Assembly: GCF_006716185.1 (NCBI RefSeq)
Contig: NZ_VFOP01000001.1
Span: 620,001-684,000 of the forward strand
DNA length: 64,000 nt
Direction of reading: 5' to 3'
Source of the DNA: Ornithinicoccus hortensis
GTDB taxonomy: Bacteria; Actinomycetota; Actinomycetes; Actinomycetales; Dermatophilaceae
Shown here: positions 32,980 to 38,427 of the stretch, in pieces
How positions within the stretch are numbered: the stretch's first letter is position 1
Layout of the letters: the number at the start of each line of letters is the position of its first letter
The notes under the pieces: generated by a model
Seen by the model: only the letters and a program-made list of their open reading frames with translations
Databases searched by the model: none
What the model was told of the DNA's origin: nothing
Made by a program: the position numbers and the translations under genes

Positions 32980-33286
32980 GTGGTGGAGGTCATCCGGTCA
33001 GCGACATTCGACCGATGGCTGACCAAGCTGAGGGACCAGCGTGCGGCCGCGCGAGTGCTGATCCGGATCAACCGCCTCGCGGCAGGCAACCCTGGCGACG
33101 TCAAGCCCGTCGGACAGGGCGTCTCCGAGCTGAGGATCAACTACGGCCCGGGGCTATCGCATCTACTACCTGCACCACCGCGACCAGGTCGTCCTGCTGC
33201 TGACCGGCGGCGAGAAGTCCACCCAGGATGCGGACATCCGCAAGGCCCACCTGATCGCCGCCGAATGGAGAAAGAGCCGATCATGA
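32980..33286 (+). pseudogene. HI1419-type (RelE/HigB superfamily) toxin, frameshifted
   Basis: The N-terminal half reads VIRSATFDRWLTKLRDQRAA, then GNPGDVKPVGQGVSELRINY, the HI1419/COG3657 addiction-module pattern. At the GGGG run 33150-33153 the frame is lost; in the +1 frame the protein continues YRIYYLHHRDQVVLLLTGGE, KSTQDADIRKAHLIAAEW and stops at 33286. The two frames together make a full-length toxin of about 101 residues. One extra G therefore inactivates it, unless it is a sequencing error. The stop overlaps the antitoxin ATG (ATGA), as in intact modules. This family cleaves mRNA at the ribosome. Confidence 0.8.
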
Positions 33287-33579
33287 CCAACGAGACGTTT
33301 GCCCCGTTCGACAGTGCGGACTACCTCAACACGTTCGACGACGTGGCCGCCTACCTAGAAGCAGTCCTCGAGAACGCCGAGGACGACCCCAAGGTCATCG
33401 CGGCAGCGCTCGGTGCCATCGCTCGCTCCCGCAACTTGAGCGAGATCGCACGACAGGCCGGGATGAGCCGGGAAGGTCTGTACAAGGCACTCTCCGCAGA
33501 CGGCAATCCCACGCTTGCAACAGTCGTGAAAGTCGCACACGCACTCGGTCTTCGGCTGCACTTCGAAGCCATCGCGTAA
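33283..33579 (+). CDS. HI1420-type antitoxin (HTH, COG3636)
   Basis: 98 residues. The helix-turn-helix is visible as LSEIARQAGMSREGLYKALS, followed by GNPTLATVVKVAHALGLRLHF, the hallmark of HI1420/COG3636 antitoxins. It neutralises the adjacent RelE-like toxin and represses the operon. The frame is intact although the toxin gene is broken, which fits decay in which the harmful partner is lost first. The ATG overlaps the toxin stop. Confidence 0.85.
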   Translation: MTNETFAPFDSADYLNTFDDVAAYLEAVLENAEDDPKVIAAALGAIARSRNLSEIARQAGMSREGLYKALSADGNPTLATVVKVAHALGLRLHFEAIA

Positions 33580-35330: not shown

Positions 35331-36080
35331 TCAGACCGCGAGGCTCCAGGCCAGCCCGCCGAAGAGCACTCCGAGCCCGTTGGTCGCCCAGTGCATGCCG
35401 ATGCTGGCGATGACGCTGCCGCTGCGCCGTCGGAGCTCGCCGGCGATCAGGCCCCCGGCGGCGGTGAACAGCACGGTGGCGGCGATCAGCGCCACCTTGG
35501 CGTGGCCGCCCAGGGCCTCGAAGGCCGCTCCGACAGAGGCGTTGCCGGTGGCCGAGGCCGCCGCGGGGAGCACGTGCCACAGCCCGAAGAGCAGCGAGGA
35601 TCCGAGGAGGACCTGCCACATCCGCGCGTGCCGGGACAGCATCCCCCACAGCACCGAGCGGAACGCGACCTCCTCCAGCAGCACGGTGCCGAGCGGGATG
35701 ACCACGAAGGCGGTGAGCAGGATGCCCGCCGGTGGCAGGTGGTAGCGCACGTCGAGGAAGGCCGTCCGGGTGCCGGGCAGGAGCACCCCGATCAGGTAGA
35801 TGACGGTCACGAGCGCGATGACGATCCCGCCCCAGCGGAGCCCGGCGGCATGGGTGCGTCGGGCCAGCCCGAGTTGGTGCCAGGTGAGTCCGGAGGCACG
35901 GGCGAAGAGGATGAGCGCCACGGCGCCGACGGGGCCCAGCCACAGCGAGTCCCAGCCCAGCAGGTGGTTGGCCAGGTTGATCCCGACCAGGCCGAGCACC
36001 ACGGTGATCGTGGCGGCGGGTGCGAACCGGGTCGTCGGTTCCGTCGCCGGGGTCGCGGTCCCCGGGGTCGCGTGGGTCAT
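35331..36080 (-). CDS. CPBP-family intramembrane metalloprotease
   Basis: About 249 residues with six to eight helices. The CPBP (Abi) motifs are LLEEVAFRSVLWG (EExxxR), FGLWHVLPAA (FxxxH) and IGMHWATNGLG (HxxxN-like), the glutamate/histidine active site of Rce1-like proteases. It may process a membrane or secreted peptide; the substrate is unknown. The start is uncertain: ATG 36080, or GTG 36083 or 36089; none has a clear Shine-Dalgarno. Its leader contains an intrinsic terminator (36139-36167) directly behind a strong promoter that overlaps the RAE of helR. Confidence 0.83.
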   Translation of the reverse strand: MTHATPGTATPATEPTTRFAPAATITVVLGLVGINLANHLLGWDSLWLGPVGAVALILFARASGLTWHQLGLARRTHAAGLRWGGIVIALVTVIYLIGVLLPGTRTAFLDVRYHLPPAGILLTAFVVIPLGTVLLEEVAFRSVLWGMLSRHARMWQVLLGSSLLFGLWHVLPAAASATGNASVGAAFEALGGHAKVALIAATVLFTAAGGLIAGELRRRSGSVIASIGMHWATNGLGVLFGGLAWSLAV

Positions 36081-36138
36081 CACGACCACTGTGCATCACC
36101 AACCTGGGTAGCGCCTGCGGACGAGGACGCCCGGCCAC

Positions 36139-36167
36139 AAAAAAGGAAGGGAGGACCGCTCCCTTCC
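36139..36167 (-). terminator. Intrinsic terminator on minus strand, in CPBP leader
   Basis: Read on the minus strand, arms GGAAGGGAG and CTCCCTTCC (9 bp, 5-nt loop CGGTC) are followed at once by six T. This is a textbook rho-independent terminator, rare in this genome. It begins almost at the predicted start of the transcript from the promoter at 36176-36204, so most RNA would be only about 30 nt long unless polymerase reads through into the protease gene. Confidence 0.8.
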
Positions 36168-36175
36168 ACTTCAAC

Positions 36176-36204
36176 GTTATAGCGCACCCGGGGGCTTGCG
36201 GCAA
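36176..36204 (-). promoter_or_regulatory. Strong sigma70-type promoter, minus strand, inside RAE
   Basis: -35 TTGCCG (36204-36199), exactly 17-bp spacer, -10 TATAAC (36181-36176). This is the best consensus match I found in the window. The -35 hexamer is one half of the RAE palindrome. The predicted start is near 36169, at the edge of the terminator hairpin. Confidence 0.65.
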
Positions 36205-36211
36205 GACCCCC
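36190..36211. promoter_or_regulatory. Rifamycin-associated element (RAE) palindrome
   Basis: GGGGCTTGCGGCAAGACCC at 36191-36209 differs at one base from the 19-bp RAE consensus as I remember it (GGGGCTTGCGGCAAG followed by N and CCC). The RAE lies upstream of rifamycin-inducible genes (helR, rph, iri, arr) in actinobacteria. Arms GGGGG/CCCCC and CTTGC/GCAAG surround a central G with one bulged A. On the plus strand TTGCGG (36196-36201) can act as -35 with GACAAT (36221-36226) as -10 for helR. Confidence 0.8.
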
Positions 36212-36234
36212 TGGAGCCCGGACAATCGTCGGCT

Positions 36235-38427
36235 GTGACGACCGAAGGGGGAGTGGAGCACACCGTGAAGAGCACGCCAACGAGGACCACGCCGGGCCGC
36301 GCCGGGAGGGTCTTCGACCTGCCGGACCACCTGGCGGCCAAGGCCGACCCTGCGCTGATCGCCGGGGACGAGGCCCATTTCGCCGCGATCGCGCGGAGCC
36401 TGGAGCACACCGTCGCCGACCTGTCCGACCGGCTCGACGCCGCACGGCTGGCACCCGCCGGCTCGGGGCAGACCGCGCTGGAGCGCGACCAGGAGGTGCA
36501 CCGCCTCACCGCCCGGCGCCGGACCCTGCTGCGGTTCGGGCTGGACCTGTGCCTGGGGCGCATGGTCGGGGAGGGGGATGCCGAGCCGGTCTACGTCGGG
36601 CGGCTCGGGCTCACCGACGAGGACGGTCGCCGGCTGATGATCGACTGGCGCACGCCCGCGGCCGAGCCGTTCTTCGGCGCGACCCACGGCAACCCGATGG
36701 GGCTGGTCAGTCGTCGCCGCTACCGGTGGACCGGGGGGCGCGTCAGCGACTACTGGGACGAGGTGTTCACCGAGGAGGGCCTGGAGCACCACGCGGCACT
36801 CGATGACCAGTCCGCCTTCATCGCCAGCCTCGGCGGCAGCAGGACCGCGCGGATGCGGGACGTGCTGGGCACCATCGCCGCCGACCAGGACGCGATCATC
36901 CGGGCCGGCTCGCGCGGCGCGCTCGTGGTCGACGGGGGCCCCGGCACGGGCAAGACGGTCGTGGCCCTGCACCGGACGGCATACCTGCTGTATGCCGACC
37001 CGCGACTGGGCGATCGCCGCGGCGGGGTGCTCTTCGTGGGCCCGCACGAGCCCTACCTCGCCTACGTCTCCGACGTGCTCCCGAGCCTGGGCGAGGAGGG
37101 GGTGCAGACCTGCACGGTGCGCGACCTGGTCGCGGAGGGCGCCGCCGCGGGGGTCGAGGCGGACCCGGATGTGGCGGCGCTGAAGGCGACCGGTCGGATG
37201 GTCGGCGCGATCGAGGCGGCGGTCCGCTTCTCCGAGGAGCCGCCGACCCGGGGGACGACCGTCTCCGCCGGTGAGGCGGACCTCTACGTCAGCGCCTCCG
37301 ACTGGGCCACGGCGTTCGACGCTGTCGACCCGGGGACACCGCACAACGAGGCGCACGACCAGATCCTGGAAGAGCTCGCCGAGCTGGTGGGCGAGTCCCC
37401 GGACGAGCGGGAGGCCCTGCTGCGGGACCCCGAACTCCGCGAGGCACTCGCCCGTGCCTGGCCGCTGATCGAGCCGGCCGACCTGGTGGGCGACCTCTGG
37501 TCGGTGCCCGCCTACCTGCGCCGGTGCGCTCCCTGGTTGAGCGCCGGGGAGGCCGGCCTGTTGCACCGGGAGGAACCACAGGCGTGGACGGTCGCCGACC
37601 TACCCCTGCTGGACGCGGCCCGCGACCGGCTGGGAGACCCGCAGGCGGCACGGCGTCGGCGCCAGCGGGCAGCGGCGCGCGCGGCCGAGCGGGCCCGGCG
37701 GCAGGACGTCATCGACCACCTCGTCGCCACCGACGACTCCGAGATGGCCGTCATGTCGATGTTGCGCCGGCCGGACCTGCAGGACGCGTTGGACGATGAC
37801 GACGTGGTCCGGGACGTCGACCCGGACCGGCTCGCCGGGCCCTTCGCCCACGTCGTCGTCGACGAGGCCCAGGAGCTGACCGACGCCGAGTGGCAGATGG
37901 TGTTGCGGCGGTGCCCGTCCGGCAGCCTCACCATCGTCGGGGACCGTGCCCAGGCCCGGCACGGCTTCGCCCAGACCTGGCAGGAACGGTTGGCGCAGGT
38001 CGGTCTGGACCGGGTGCGGATTGCCACCCTCGGCATCAACTACCGCACACCGGAGGAGGTCATGGAGGAGGCCGAGCCGGTCATCCGCGCCGTGCTGCCG
38101 GACGCAAACGTCCCGACCTCGGTGCGGCGCAGCGGCATACCGGTCCGTCACGGTGCCCACCGCGACCTGGAGGAGGCCCTGCGGGAGTGGGCGACCATCC
38201 ACCCCGAGGGCATCGCCTGCGTCGTCGGCGACCCCCAGGTGGCGGAACGGCCCCGGGTCCGGTCGTTGACGCCGGACCTGGTCAAGGGCCTGGAGTTCGA
38301 CCTCGTCGTCCTGGTCGACCCGGAGTCCTTCGGCCGCGGGTCCGGTGACCCGGTCGAGGGCGCGGTCGACCGCTACGTGGCGATGACGCGGGCCACCCAG
38401 CAGCTGGTCATCCTGACGAGCGGATGA
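36235..38427 (+). CDS. helR: HelD/HelR RNA polymerase-recycling, rifamycin-protection ATPase
   Basis: About 730 residues of the UvrD/Rep-like HelD family. The N-terminal coiled-coil arm (about 20-110) probes the RNA polymerase channels. Walker A is GGPGTGKTVVALHRTAYLL (about 234), Walker B VVVDEAQELTDAEW (about 541), and late motifs are LGINYRTPEEV, KGLEFDLVVLVD and YVAMTRATQQL. HelD proteins eject stalled polymerase from DNA. The HelR class also displaces rifamycin and gives resistance; assignment to HelR rests mainly on the RAE upstream. GTG 36235 is chosen for leaderless start 8 nt after GACAAT; GTG 36265 behind GGGGGAG is the alternative. Confidence 0.85.
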   Translation: MTTEGGVEHTVKSTPTRTTPGRAGRVFDLPDHLAAKADPALIAGDEAHFAAIARSLEHTVADLSDRLDAARLAPAGSGQTALERDQEVHRLTARRRTLLRFGLDLCLGRMVGEGDAEPVYVGRLGLTDEDGRRLMIDWRTPAAEPFFGATHGNPMGLVSRRRYRWTGGRVSDYWDEVFTEEGLEHHAALDDQSAFIASLGGSRTARMRDVLGTIAADQDAIIRAGSRGALVVDGGPGTGKTVVALHRTAYLLYADPRLGDRRGGVLFVGPHEPYLAYVSDVLPSLGEEGVQTCTVRDLVAEGAAAGVEADPDVAALKATGRMVGAIEAAVRFSEEPPTRGTTVSAGEADLYVSASDWATAFDAVDPGTPHNEAHDQILEELAELVGESPDEREALLRDPELREALARAWPLIEPADLVGDLWSVPAYLRRCAPWLSAGEAGLLHREEPQAWTVADLPLLDAARDRLGDPQAARRRRQRAAARAAERARRQDVIDHLVATDDSEMAVMSMLRRPDLQDALDDDDVVRDVDPDRLAGPFAHVVVDEAQELTDAEWQMVLRRCPSGSLTIVGDRAQARHGFAQTWQERLAQVGLDRVRIATLGINYRTPEEVMEEAEPVIRAVLPDANVPTSVRRSGIPVRHGAHRDLEEALREWATIHPEGIACVVGDPQVAERPRVRSLTPDLVKGLEFDLVVLVDPESFGRGSGDPVEGAVDRYVAMTRATQQLVILTSG

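Follow-up and report, generated by a model that had tools for sequence, protein, structure and literature searches.

The rifamycin-associated element as the predicted centre of a conserved divergent promoter pair

Introduction

The rifamycin-associated element (RAE) is a 19-bp palindrome that precedes rifamycin-resistance genes, including helR, and overlaps the -35 element of the gene promoter (Spanogiannopoulos et al. 2014; for RAE-helR, Surette et al. 2022 and Hurst-Hess et al. 2022; all as reported in later papers). Here, the RAE upstream of helR is analysed in a stretch of 64,000 nucleotides from Ornithinicoccus hortensis (the window, in whose coordinates all positions are given; contig NZ_VFOP01000001.1, positions 620,001 to 684,000) and compared with other RAEs. 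The analysis points to a conserved divergent double promoter that has the RAE at its centre and in which a drug-responsive factor would reverse the choice of direction, a proposal that, in our estimate, is evenly balanced between right and wrong. The underlying architecture, namely two overlapping, opposite -35 hexamers, each with a -10 hexamer at 19 nt, is very probably real, as judged from the sequence.

In the passages on the RAE in PMC10719064, PMC8655204, PMC10194278 and PMC12802891, the second and third of which deal with its distribution and use, the 19-bp palindrome is described with sense promoters only. A factor binding the RAE has been proposed (PMC10719064), and the precise mechanism is said to remain to be elucidated in the relevant part of the 2026 Bacillus paper (PMC12802891). 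An upstream-facing promoter, a symmetric pair of -10 hexamers or a terminated arm finds no description in these parts of the RAE literature, where the primary papers of 2014 and 2022 are represented through later papers only.

A comparable arrangement is reported for Bacillus subtilis, in which helD and pps are under a dual-promoter rifampicin alarm, the antisense promoter of helD being several-fold stronger and giving an RNA of ~94 nt that ends at a putative intrinsic terminator (account of these genes in PMC12802891). The likeness to the RAE locus consists in the sense promoter of a helD-type gene, an opposite promoter (stronger there, predicted to be of a stronger type here) and a short RNA meeting a terminator; the B. 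subtilis promoters are, however, separate and convergent, whereas those predicted here diverge from one palindromic -35. Divergent overlapping promoters with a common operator form another familiar kind, which also has two opposite promoters over one palindrome, but the second promoter of the RAE has no constant gene and often leads at once into a terminator-like hairpin.

The RAE locus of the window

The following features make up the locus (minus, upstream-facing; plus, gene-facing).

36191..36209, no strand: RAE palindrome GGGGCTTGCGGCAAGACCC, centre 36200, putative shared -35 and operator
36199..36204, minus: upstream-facing -35-like hexamer TTGCCG, from a sequence scan of the window
36174..36179, minus: predicted upstream-facing -10 hexamer TAACGT (TANNNT at -21 to -26 from the RAE centre, 19-nt spacer)
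36196..36201, plus: gene-facing -35-like hexamer TTGCGG, read from the sequence
36221..36226, plus: predicted gene-facing -10 hexamer GACAAT (NANNNT at +21 to +26, 19-nt spacer)
36145..36167, minus: 9-bp hairpin with 6 G-C pairs and a loop of 5, beginning at the predicted +1 (36167)
36139..36144, minus: tail of six T, predicted end of an RNA of ~29 nt
36265..38427, plus: helR, RNA polymerase-recycling/rifamycin-protection ATPase, with an inferred GTG start and GGGGGAG at 36247-36253
35331..36089, minus: gene of a CPBP/Rce1-like membrane protease (PF02517, E 4.9e-14), downstream of the minus-strand arm and not a conserved part

The element is an RAE both by its 19-bp palindrome of the form GGGNCTTGCNGCAAGNCCC and by the rifamycin-resistance gene downstream, which is identified as helR by NF041254 (1200 bits against a cut-off of 750, on the frame 36196-38427). 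It is the single match of GGGNCTTGCNGCAAGNCCC in the 3.94-Mb genome at zero mismatches and is still single with 2 mismatches allowed; for comparison, a backwards control pattern at 2 mismatches has 3 matches per strand.

An initial annotation of this DNA had noticed the opposite TTG-type -35-like hexamers in the RAE before helR, and these are confirmed at 36191-36209. It had also joined TTGCCG on the minus strand, across 17 nt, to a -10 hexamer TATAAC (36204-36199 and 36181-36176) as the best promoter match of the window. This pair has 9 of 12 consensus matches and none is higher at 16-18 nt spacing, but the rank is shared, as three sites in the 64-kb window reach 9/12, and a stricter scan, in which the final -10 base has to be T, gives no promoter between 35500 and 37000. 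TATAAC overlaps the hexamer TAACGT, and in the 19-nt register of the latter, the RAE locus is the only instance of TTGNNN-N19-TANNNT in the window; transcription would then start at 36167, where the stem begins.

The 9-bp hairpin with six T directly downstream on the minus strand, another claim of the same annotation, holds as well and is unique of its kind: it is the sole terminator-like site in 35500-37000, where shuffles expect 0.4, and no other place in the entire window combines a perfect stem of 8 bp or more (loop 3-8) with 6 T in 10. As in intrinsic terminators, a G+C-rich stem-loop with a T run behind it on the putative transcribed strand thus occupies 36167-36139, and the tiny RNA of ~30 nt that had been envisaged comes out at ~29 nt by prediction, with a fold of -16.0 kcal/mol (z -2.96). 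A search of 35900-36500 against Rfam returned two matches with E up to 5, both far under the family gathering score.

Conserved geometry around the RAE

The RAE sites come from several sets. A helR protein search gave at least 562 confirmed stretches, of which the best 80 were kept, making 81 loci with the window; 79 loci passed the RAE filter, L050 was added by hand and L023 is without a site, so that the helR set consists of 80 sites that were found by protein and then filtered for CTTG...CAAG between G- and C-rich flanks. At class level, the bare RAE pattern was present in 114 of 296 genomes (3 with the backwards control), and 69 of the matched sites were read (29 retrieved automatically, 40 by place). 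In the window's own family, 33 of 119 genomes matched (one of these, G350, with only six sites of another centre, probably by chance), and in the mycobacterial family 67 of 101; 58 of the loci from these two families were fetched, 7 duplicates were dropped, and 26 own-family and 25 mycobacterial sites were retained. Altogether, there are 200 sites, 198 of them with the full 126-nt stretch and 169 non-redundant (>20% difference). The search pattern fixes CTTG, CAAG, GGG and CCC in the class and family sites, and the conservation of TTG is therefore no independent evidence. The class set was oriented with a score that included the upstream arm; the gene-facing hexamer alone gives a different orientation for 1 of the 69 sites (L119, which was turned round) and 2 ties. 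Orientation in the two families (51 sites) was taken from the gene.

TANNNT on the upstream-facing strand occupies precisely positions -21 to -26 relative to the RAE centre in 166 of the 169 non-redundant sites (79 of 80 in the helR set, 66 of 69 in the class set and all 51 sites oriented by their gene); the exceptions are one-base shifts in L031 and L150 and the degenerate site L143. The background of TANNNT further upstream on the same strand is 0.00086 per position, and the next best offset between -150 and +100 reaches 3%. On the gene-facing strand, NANNNT is found at +21 to +26 in 167 of the 169 sites, mostly as CANAAT, with C as the first base in 159 and T in 2. Each of the two -10 hexamers is separated by 19 nt from a TTG hexamer of the palindrome, so the promoter pair is symmetric. 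Six nt past the upstream-facing hexamer, at the predicted +1 and +2, G is present in 98% and 93% of the sites. Outside about -41 to +40, conservation falls to background, which argues for selection and not recent copying.

These data replace the register of the initial annotation: TATAAC with its 17-nt spacer occurs in 3 of the 169 sites, compared with 166 for TANNNT at 19 nt. The tetramer TATA is found in 141, and several mycobacterial-family sites have TA[CA]AGT at the 19-nt register without a neighbouring TATA. The conserved -10 expected at RAE-helR loci is accordingly found once the register is moved by 2 nt; the expected hairpin is there in part (96 of the 169 sites; see below).

Within the genus, helR at 66% identity or more is encoded in 12 of 31 genomes. 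In the 10 loci compared (window included), TANNNT at -21 to -26 is present in all, and the RAE is either intact or a variant with a changed gene-facing half (L212-L214, L218). The expectation that TATAAC and the hairpin extend to close relatives fails for TATAAC, which is confined to the window, and holds for the hairpin, as recognized by eye, in 3 of the 10 loci (window, L210 and L217). In L212, L213 and L214, the gene-facing half has become GCAAGCGGC and the sense -10 is shifted by one base, with the upstream-facing arm intact.

The predicted arrangement holds before six kinds of rifamycin-resistance-linked gene, the upstream arm being present at helR, rox, rph, rgt, arr and mycobacterial-type helD sites. 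Representatives exceed the cut-off for rox (NF033145, 854 bits against 800), arr (NF000318, 264 against 250) and HelD_MYCSM (NF041465, 1232 against 1051); those for rph (NF041857, 795 against 999, the protein being cut by the locus end) and rgt (NF000354, 624 against 800) lie under it. The feature is thus more general than one locus: a promoter-like arm accompanies nearly every RAE examined.

A plain operator, to which a rifamycin-responsive regulator binds while the upstream arm is a by-product, terminated to avoid noise, would account for the symmetric half-sites GGGNCTTG, with their free position 6, and for the RAE-binding factor proposed in the literature (the respective passages of PMC10719064 and PMC12802891). 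If the arm were a by-product, its decay would be expected; the upstream-facing -10 is, however, retained about as often as the gene-facing one (166 versus 167 of the 169 sites), at sites without a hairpin too, and in L212-L214 despite the altered gene-facing half; we regard this explanation as unlikely, although worth serious consideration. The RAE as an RNA hairpin was rejected: complementarity is not kept at half-site position 6, and a DNA site therefore fits better.

Hairpin and T tail across sites

A hairpin with a score of at least 17 that starts by +5 is found in 96 of the 169 sites, compared with 14.5% of random upstream places; the commonest start of the stem, in 57 of the 96, is exactly the predicted +1. 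The arms covary: a perfect 7-bp pairing of a site's own arms is seen in 50 of the 169 sites, whereas shuffled partners give a mean of 6.3 and a maximum of 14 (300 shuffles). Such swap and shuffle tests on all sites took the place of a MAFFT and RNAalifold alignment (52 of 80 arms, mostly picked for a visible hairpin), which was discarded because the 3' arms were misaligned and the structure was weak (6 pairs, -1.92 kcal/mol). On the outward strand, at least 4 T in the 8 nt past the hairpin occur in 55 of the 96, against 28 of 1532 control hairpins further upstream, a set that comes mostly from coding DNA; of the sites without the hairpin, 12 of 73 are T-rich at the corresponding position. Hairpin and T tail are thus found together in 55 of the 169 sites. 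By set, the hairpin is present in 43 of 58 helR, 33 of 63 class, 14 of 26 own-family and 6 of 22 mycobacterial-family sites; given this variation among lineages, the promoter-like arm appears as the constant part and the terminator as a frequent addition.

The hairpin might instead be read in the gene direction, as a leader or attenuator of the resistance gene transcribed from a start further upstream, in which case the upstream arm would be no promoter. A sense promoter of M. smegmatis helD is said to start ~20 bp before the RAE (helD passage of PMC10719064), and the wobble counts of the stems (G-U 25, A-C 30) leave the transcribed strand unfixed. The T tails, however, are on the outward side (55 of 96), an A-rich tail (at least 4 A in 8 nt) follows none of the 96 hairpins, and the conserved order TANNNT, 6 nt, GG agrees with initiation on the outward strand. 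Moreover, at offsets from -150 to +100, the 169 sites share no gene-facing TANNNT in a constant position farther upstream, so that a fixed additional sense promoter is not seen. This reading is very unlikely.

A two-way promoter and its possible mechanism

In the proposed mechanism of the divergent double promoter, the palindrome holds two overlapping, opposite TTG-type -35 hexamers, each combined with a -10 at 19 nt. The predicted upstream-facing promoter has the preferred actinobacterial -10 (TANNNT), and GG is conserved where its transcript would begin; its gene-facing counterpart is kept off-consensus, with C in place of T at the first base, and has a G+C-rich stretch before the start. Polymerase presumably initiates at the upstream-facing promoter, and in many lineages the transcript would enter the terminator-like hairpin directly at +1 and stop after a few tens of nt. 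As the same -35 is needed by both, the two promoters should be mutually exclusive; simultaneous occupancy of overlapping -35s by two polymerases is unlikely given their footprint sizes. Without the drug, polymerase would reside mostly on the upstream-facing promoter, where the tiny RNA would be made and ended, and expression of the gene would be low. The least certain step is induction, in which a rifamycin-responsive factor that binds the palindrome may cause the gene-facing promoter to be chosen. In M. smegmatis, TANNNT promoters yield more abundant transcripts than VANNNT promoters (according to the relevant passage of PMC6448022), and the upstream arm would therefore be of the stronger type.

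That the RAE functions as a two-way promoter gate seems plausible, although somewhat short of an even prospect. More tentative again is its operation as a direction switch, in which polymerase would be held on the outward, promptly terminating promoter until the drug, via a bound factor or via polymerase itself, reverses direction.

Several observations weigh against the proposed double promoter. The hairpin is missing by the above threshold from 73 of the 169 sites, among them all 8 arr sites of the class scan, and by eye from 7 of the 10 genus loci; 41 of the 96 hairpins have no T-rich tail, and termination is therefore not the essential part. The 14.5% of random places that pass the hairpin threshold, the largely coding origin of the control hairpins for the T tails and the equivocal wobble counts belong here as well. 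On the gene-facing strand, the best TANNNT offset, -27 to -22, inside the arm, is occupied in 26 of the 169 sites (15%). Compared with the Escherichia coli consensus, the gene-facing CAGAAT scores 4/6 and the upstream TACGTT 3/6, so that the 'stronger' upstream arm rests on the actinobacterial TANNNT rule; in addition, a spacer of 19 nt is long for an unaided housekeeping promoter. Two sense promoters are described for M. smegmatis helD in the corresponding part of the review PMC10719064, and a lineage-specific further gene-facing promoter may lie upstream. Finally, in a toy steady-state model with strictly exclusive promoters, built on simple assumptions, none of 135 parameter sets shows a rise in gene-facing output with 1% of the polymerase drug-bound; at 10% and 30%, even the best sets remain below 1-fold. 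Pure promoter competition as the whole mechanism is disfavoured by this result, as competition alone does not explain induction. The GGG and CCC flanks, superfluous for a -35 as such, suggest an RAE-binding factor, with the limit that they are partly fixed by the search.

An alarm of the B. subtilis helD kind, in which the opposite promoter is the stronger one and allows quicker escape, would dispense with a regulator: a strong outward promoter interferes with the gene promoter, and low rifamycin arrests polymerase there and frees the latter. The target is the same kind of gene (helD/helR), the outward promoter is of the strong type and the gene promoter of the weak type (TANNNT versus CANNNT, by sequence), and the outward RNA is predicted to meet an intrinsic-terminator-like hairpin, in the window and in 55 of the 169 sites, as does the ~94-nt antisense RNA (PMC12802891, helD account). 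The geometry, however, differs: instead of convergent promoters about 40 bp apart (39 bp in B. subtilis), the predicted RAE promoters diverge and share a -35. In B. subtilis, induction is lost when the distance is shortened by 17 bp, a change said to render binding sterically exclusive, and the same source itself sets RAE genes apart (both in the parts of PMC12802891 on these promoters). Together with the absence of induction in the toy model, this makes a polymerase-traffic alarm at the RAE distinctly unlikely.

Neighbouring genes

As an alternative to the tiny RNA, the initial annotation had envisaged an attenuated leader of the CPBP protease gene, and it had suggested that polymerase stress could switch on both genes. 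The reading frame does begin about 50-60 bp past the T run, in the right direction. This linkage is not conserved, however: CPBP relatives are encoded in 27 of 118 family genomes, the own one included, and in none of the 14 other family genomes with both is the relative beside the RAE (different contigs in 13, 1.47 Mb apart in 1), contig breaks in draft genomes leaving slight room in these distances. The nearest upstream gene, whose strand was assigned by a codon-position G+C heuristic, points away from the RAE about as often as toward it (41 and 39, and 31 and 35, with 3 too short), and the T tail is independent of this direction (28 of 49 and 25 of 49). The protease was rejected as the conserved target on the grounds of the missing adjacency and the evenly divided upstream neighbours; a CPBP promoter as a general function is largely refuted, and a divergent promoter or attenuator of this gene is extremely improbable. 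The protease is a local neighbour, and the upstream-facing arm, as far as sequence comparison goes, belongs to the RAE rather than to helR or the protease.

On the gene-facing side, 11 loci of the helR set (L003, L013, L024, L033, L035, L044, L046, L052, L054, L060 and L074) have an rgt-like gene after the RAE and helR further on, which suggests rgt-helR operons under a single RAE. In Micromonospora sicca (L051, 1978-2376, plus strand), a frame for a PPOX-class F420-dependent oxidoreductase (TIGR04023, above cut-off) lies just past the RAE, upstream of helR. Another RAE precedes a gene that encodes the ATPase of a DrrA-like ABC drug exporter (L147, 882-1805, minus strand, ~205 nt from the RAE centre; TIGR01188, 338 bits against a cut-off of 312), possibly a new exporter under RAE control. 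A mycobacterial-family genome has an RAE before a frame of 224 amino acids (L116, 1243-1914, minus strand) with a Tat-like start, as judged by eye; this frame has no NCBIfam match at 1e-10. In L039, two RAEs at 2338 and 2858, ~520 bp apart and in opposite orientation, have their outward arms facing each other. An RAE-helR unit is located on a 1.07-Mb Streptomyces plasmid (L002, AP026074.1), and the unit can therefore travel. Elsewhere in the window, at 32980-33579 on the plus strand, the list of open reading frames contains one whose parts seem to resemble a HigB/RelE-type toxin and, after it, a HigA-like antitoxin.

Implications

The conserved second promoter-like element gives the question of rifamycin sensing a concrete object: one -10 hexamer, one predicted short RNA and a predicted start base. 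The published half-deletion of the RAE (reported in PMC10719064, in its part on the element) would be read differently, because cutting the palindrome hits both promoters. If the proposal is true, RAE genes throughout Actinomycetes would be run by a two-faced promoter, the divergent counterpart of the convergent alarm of Bacillus.

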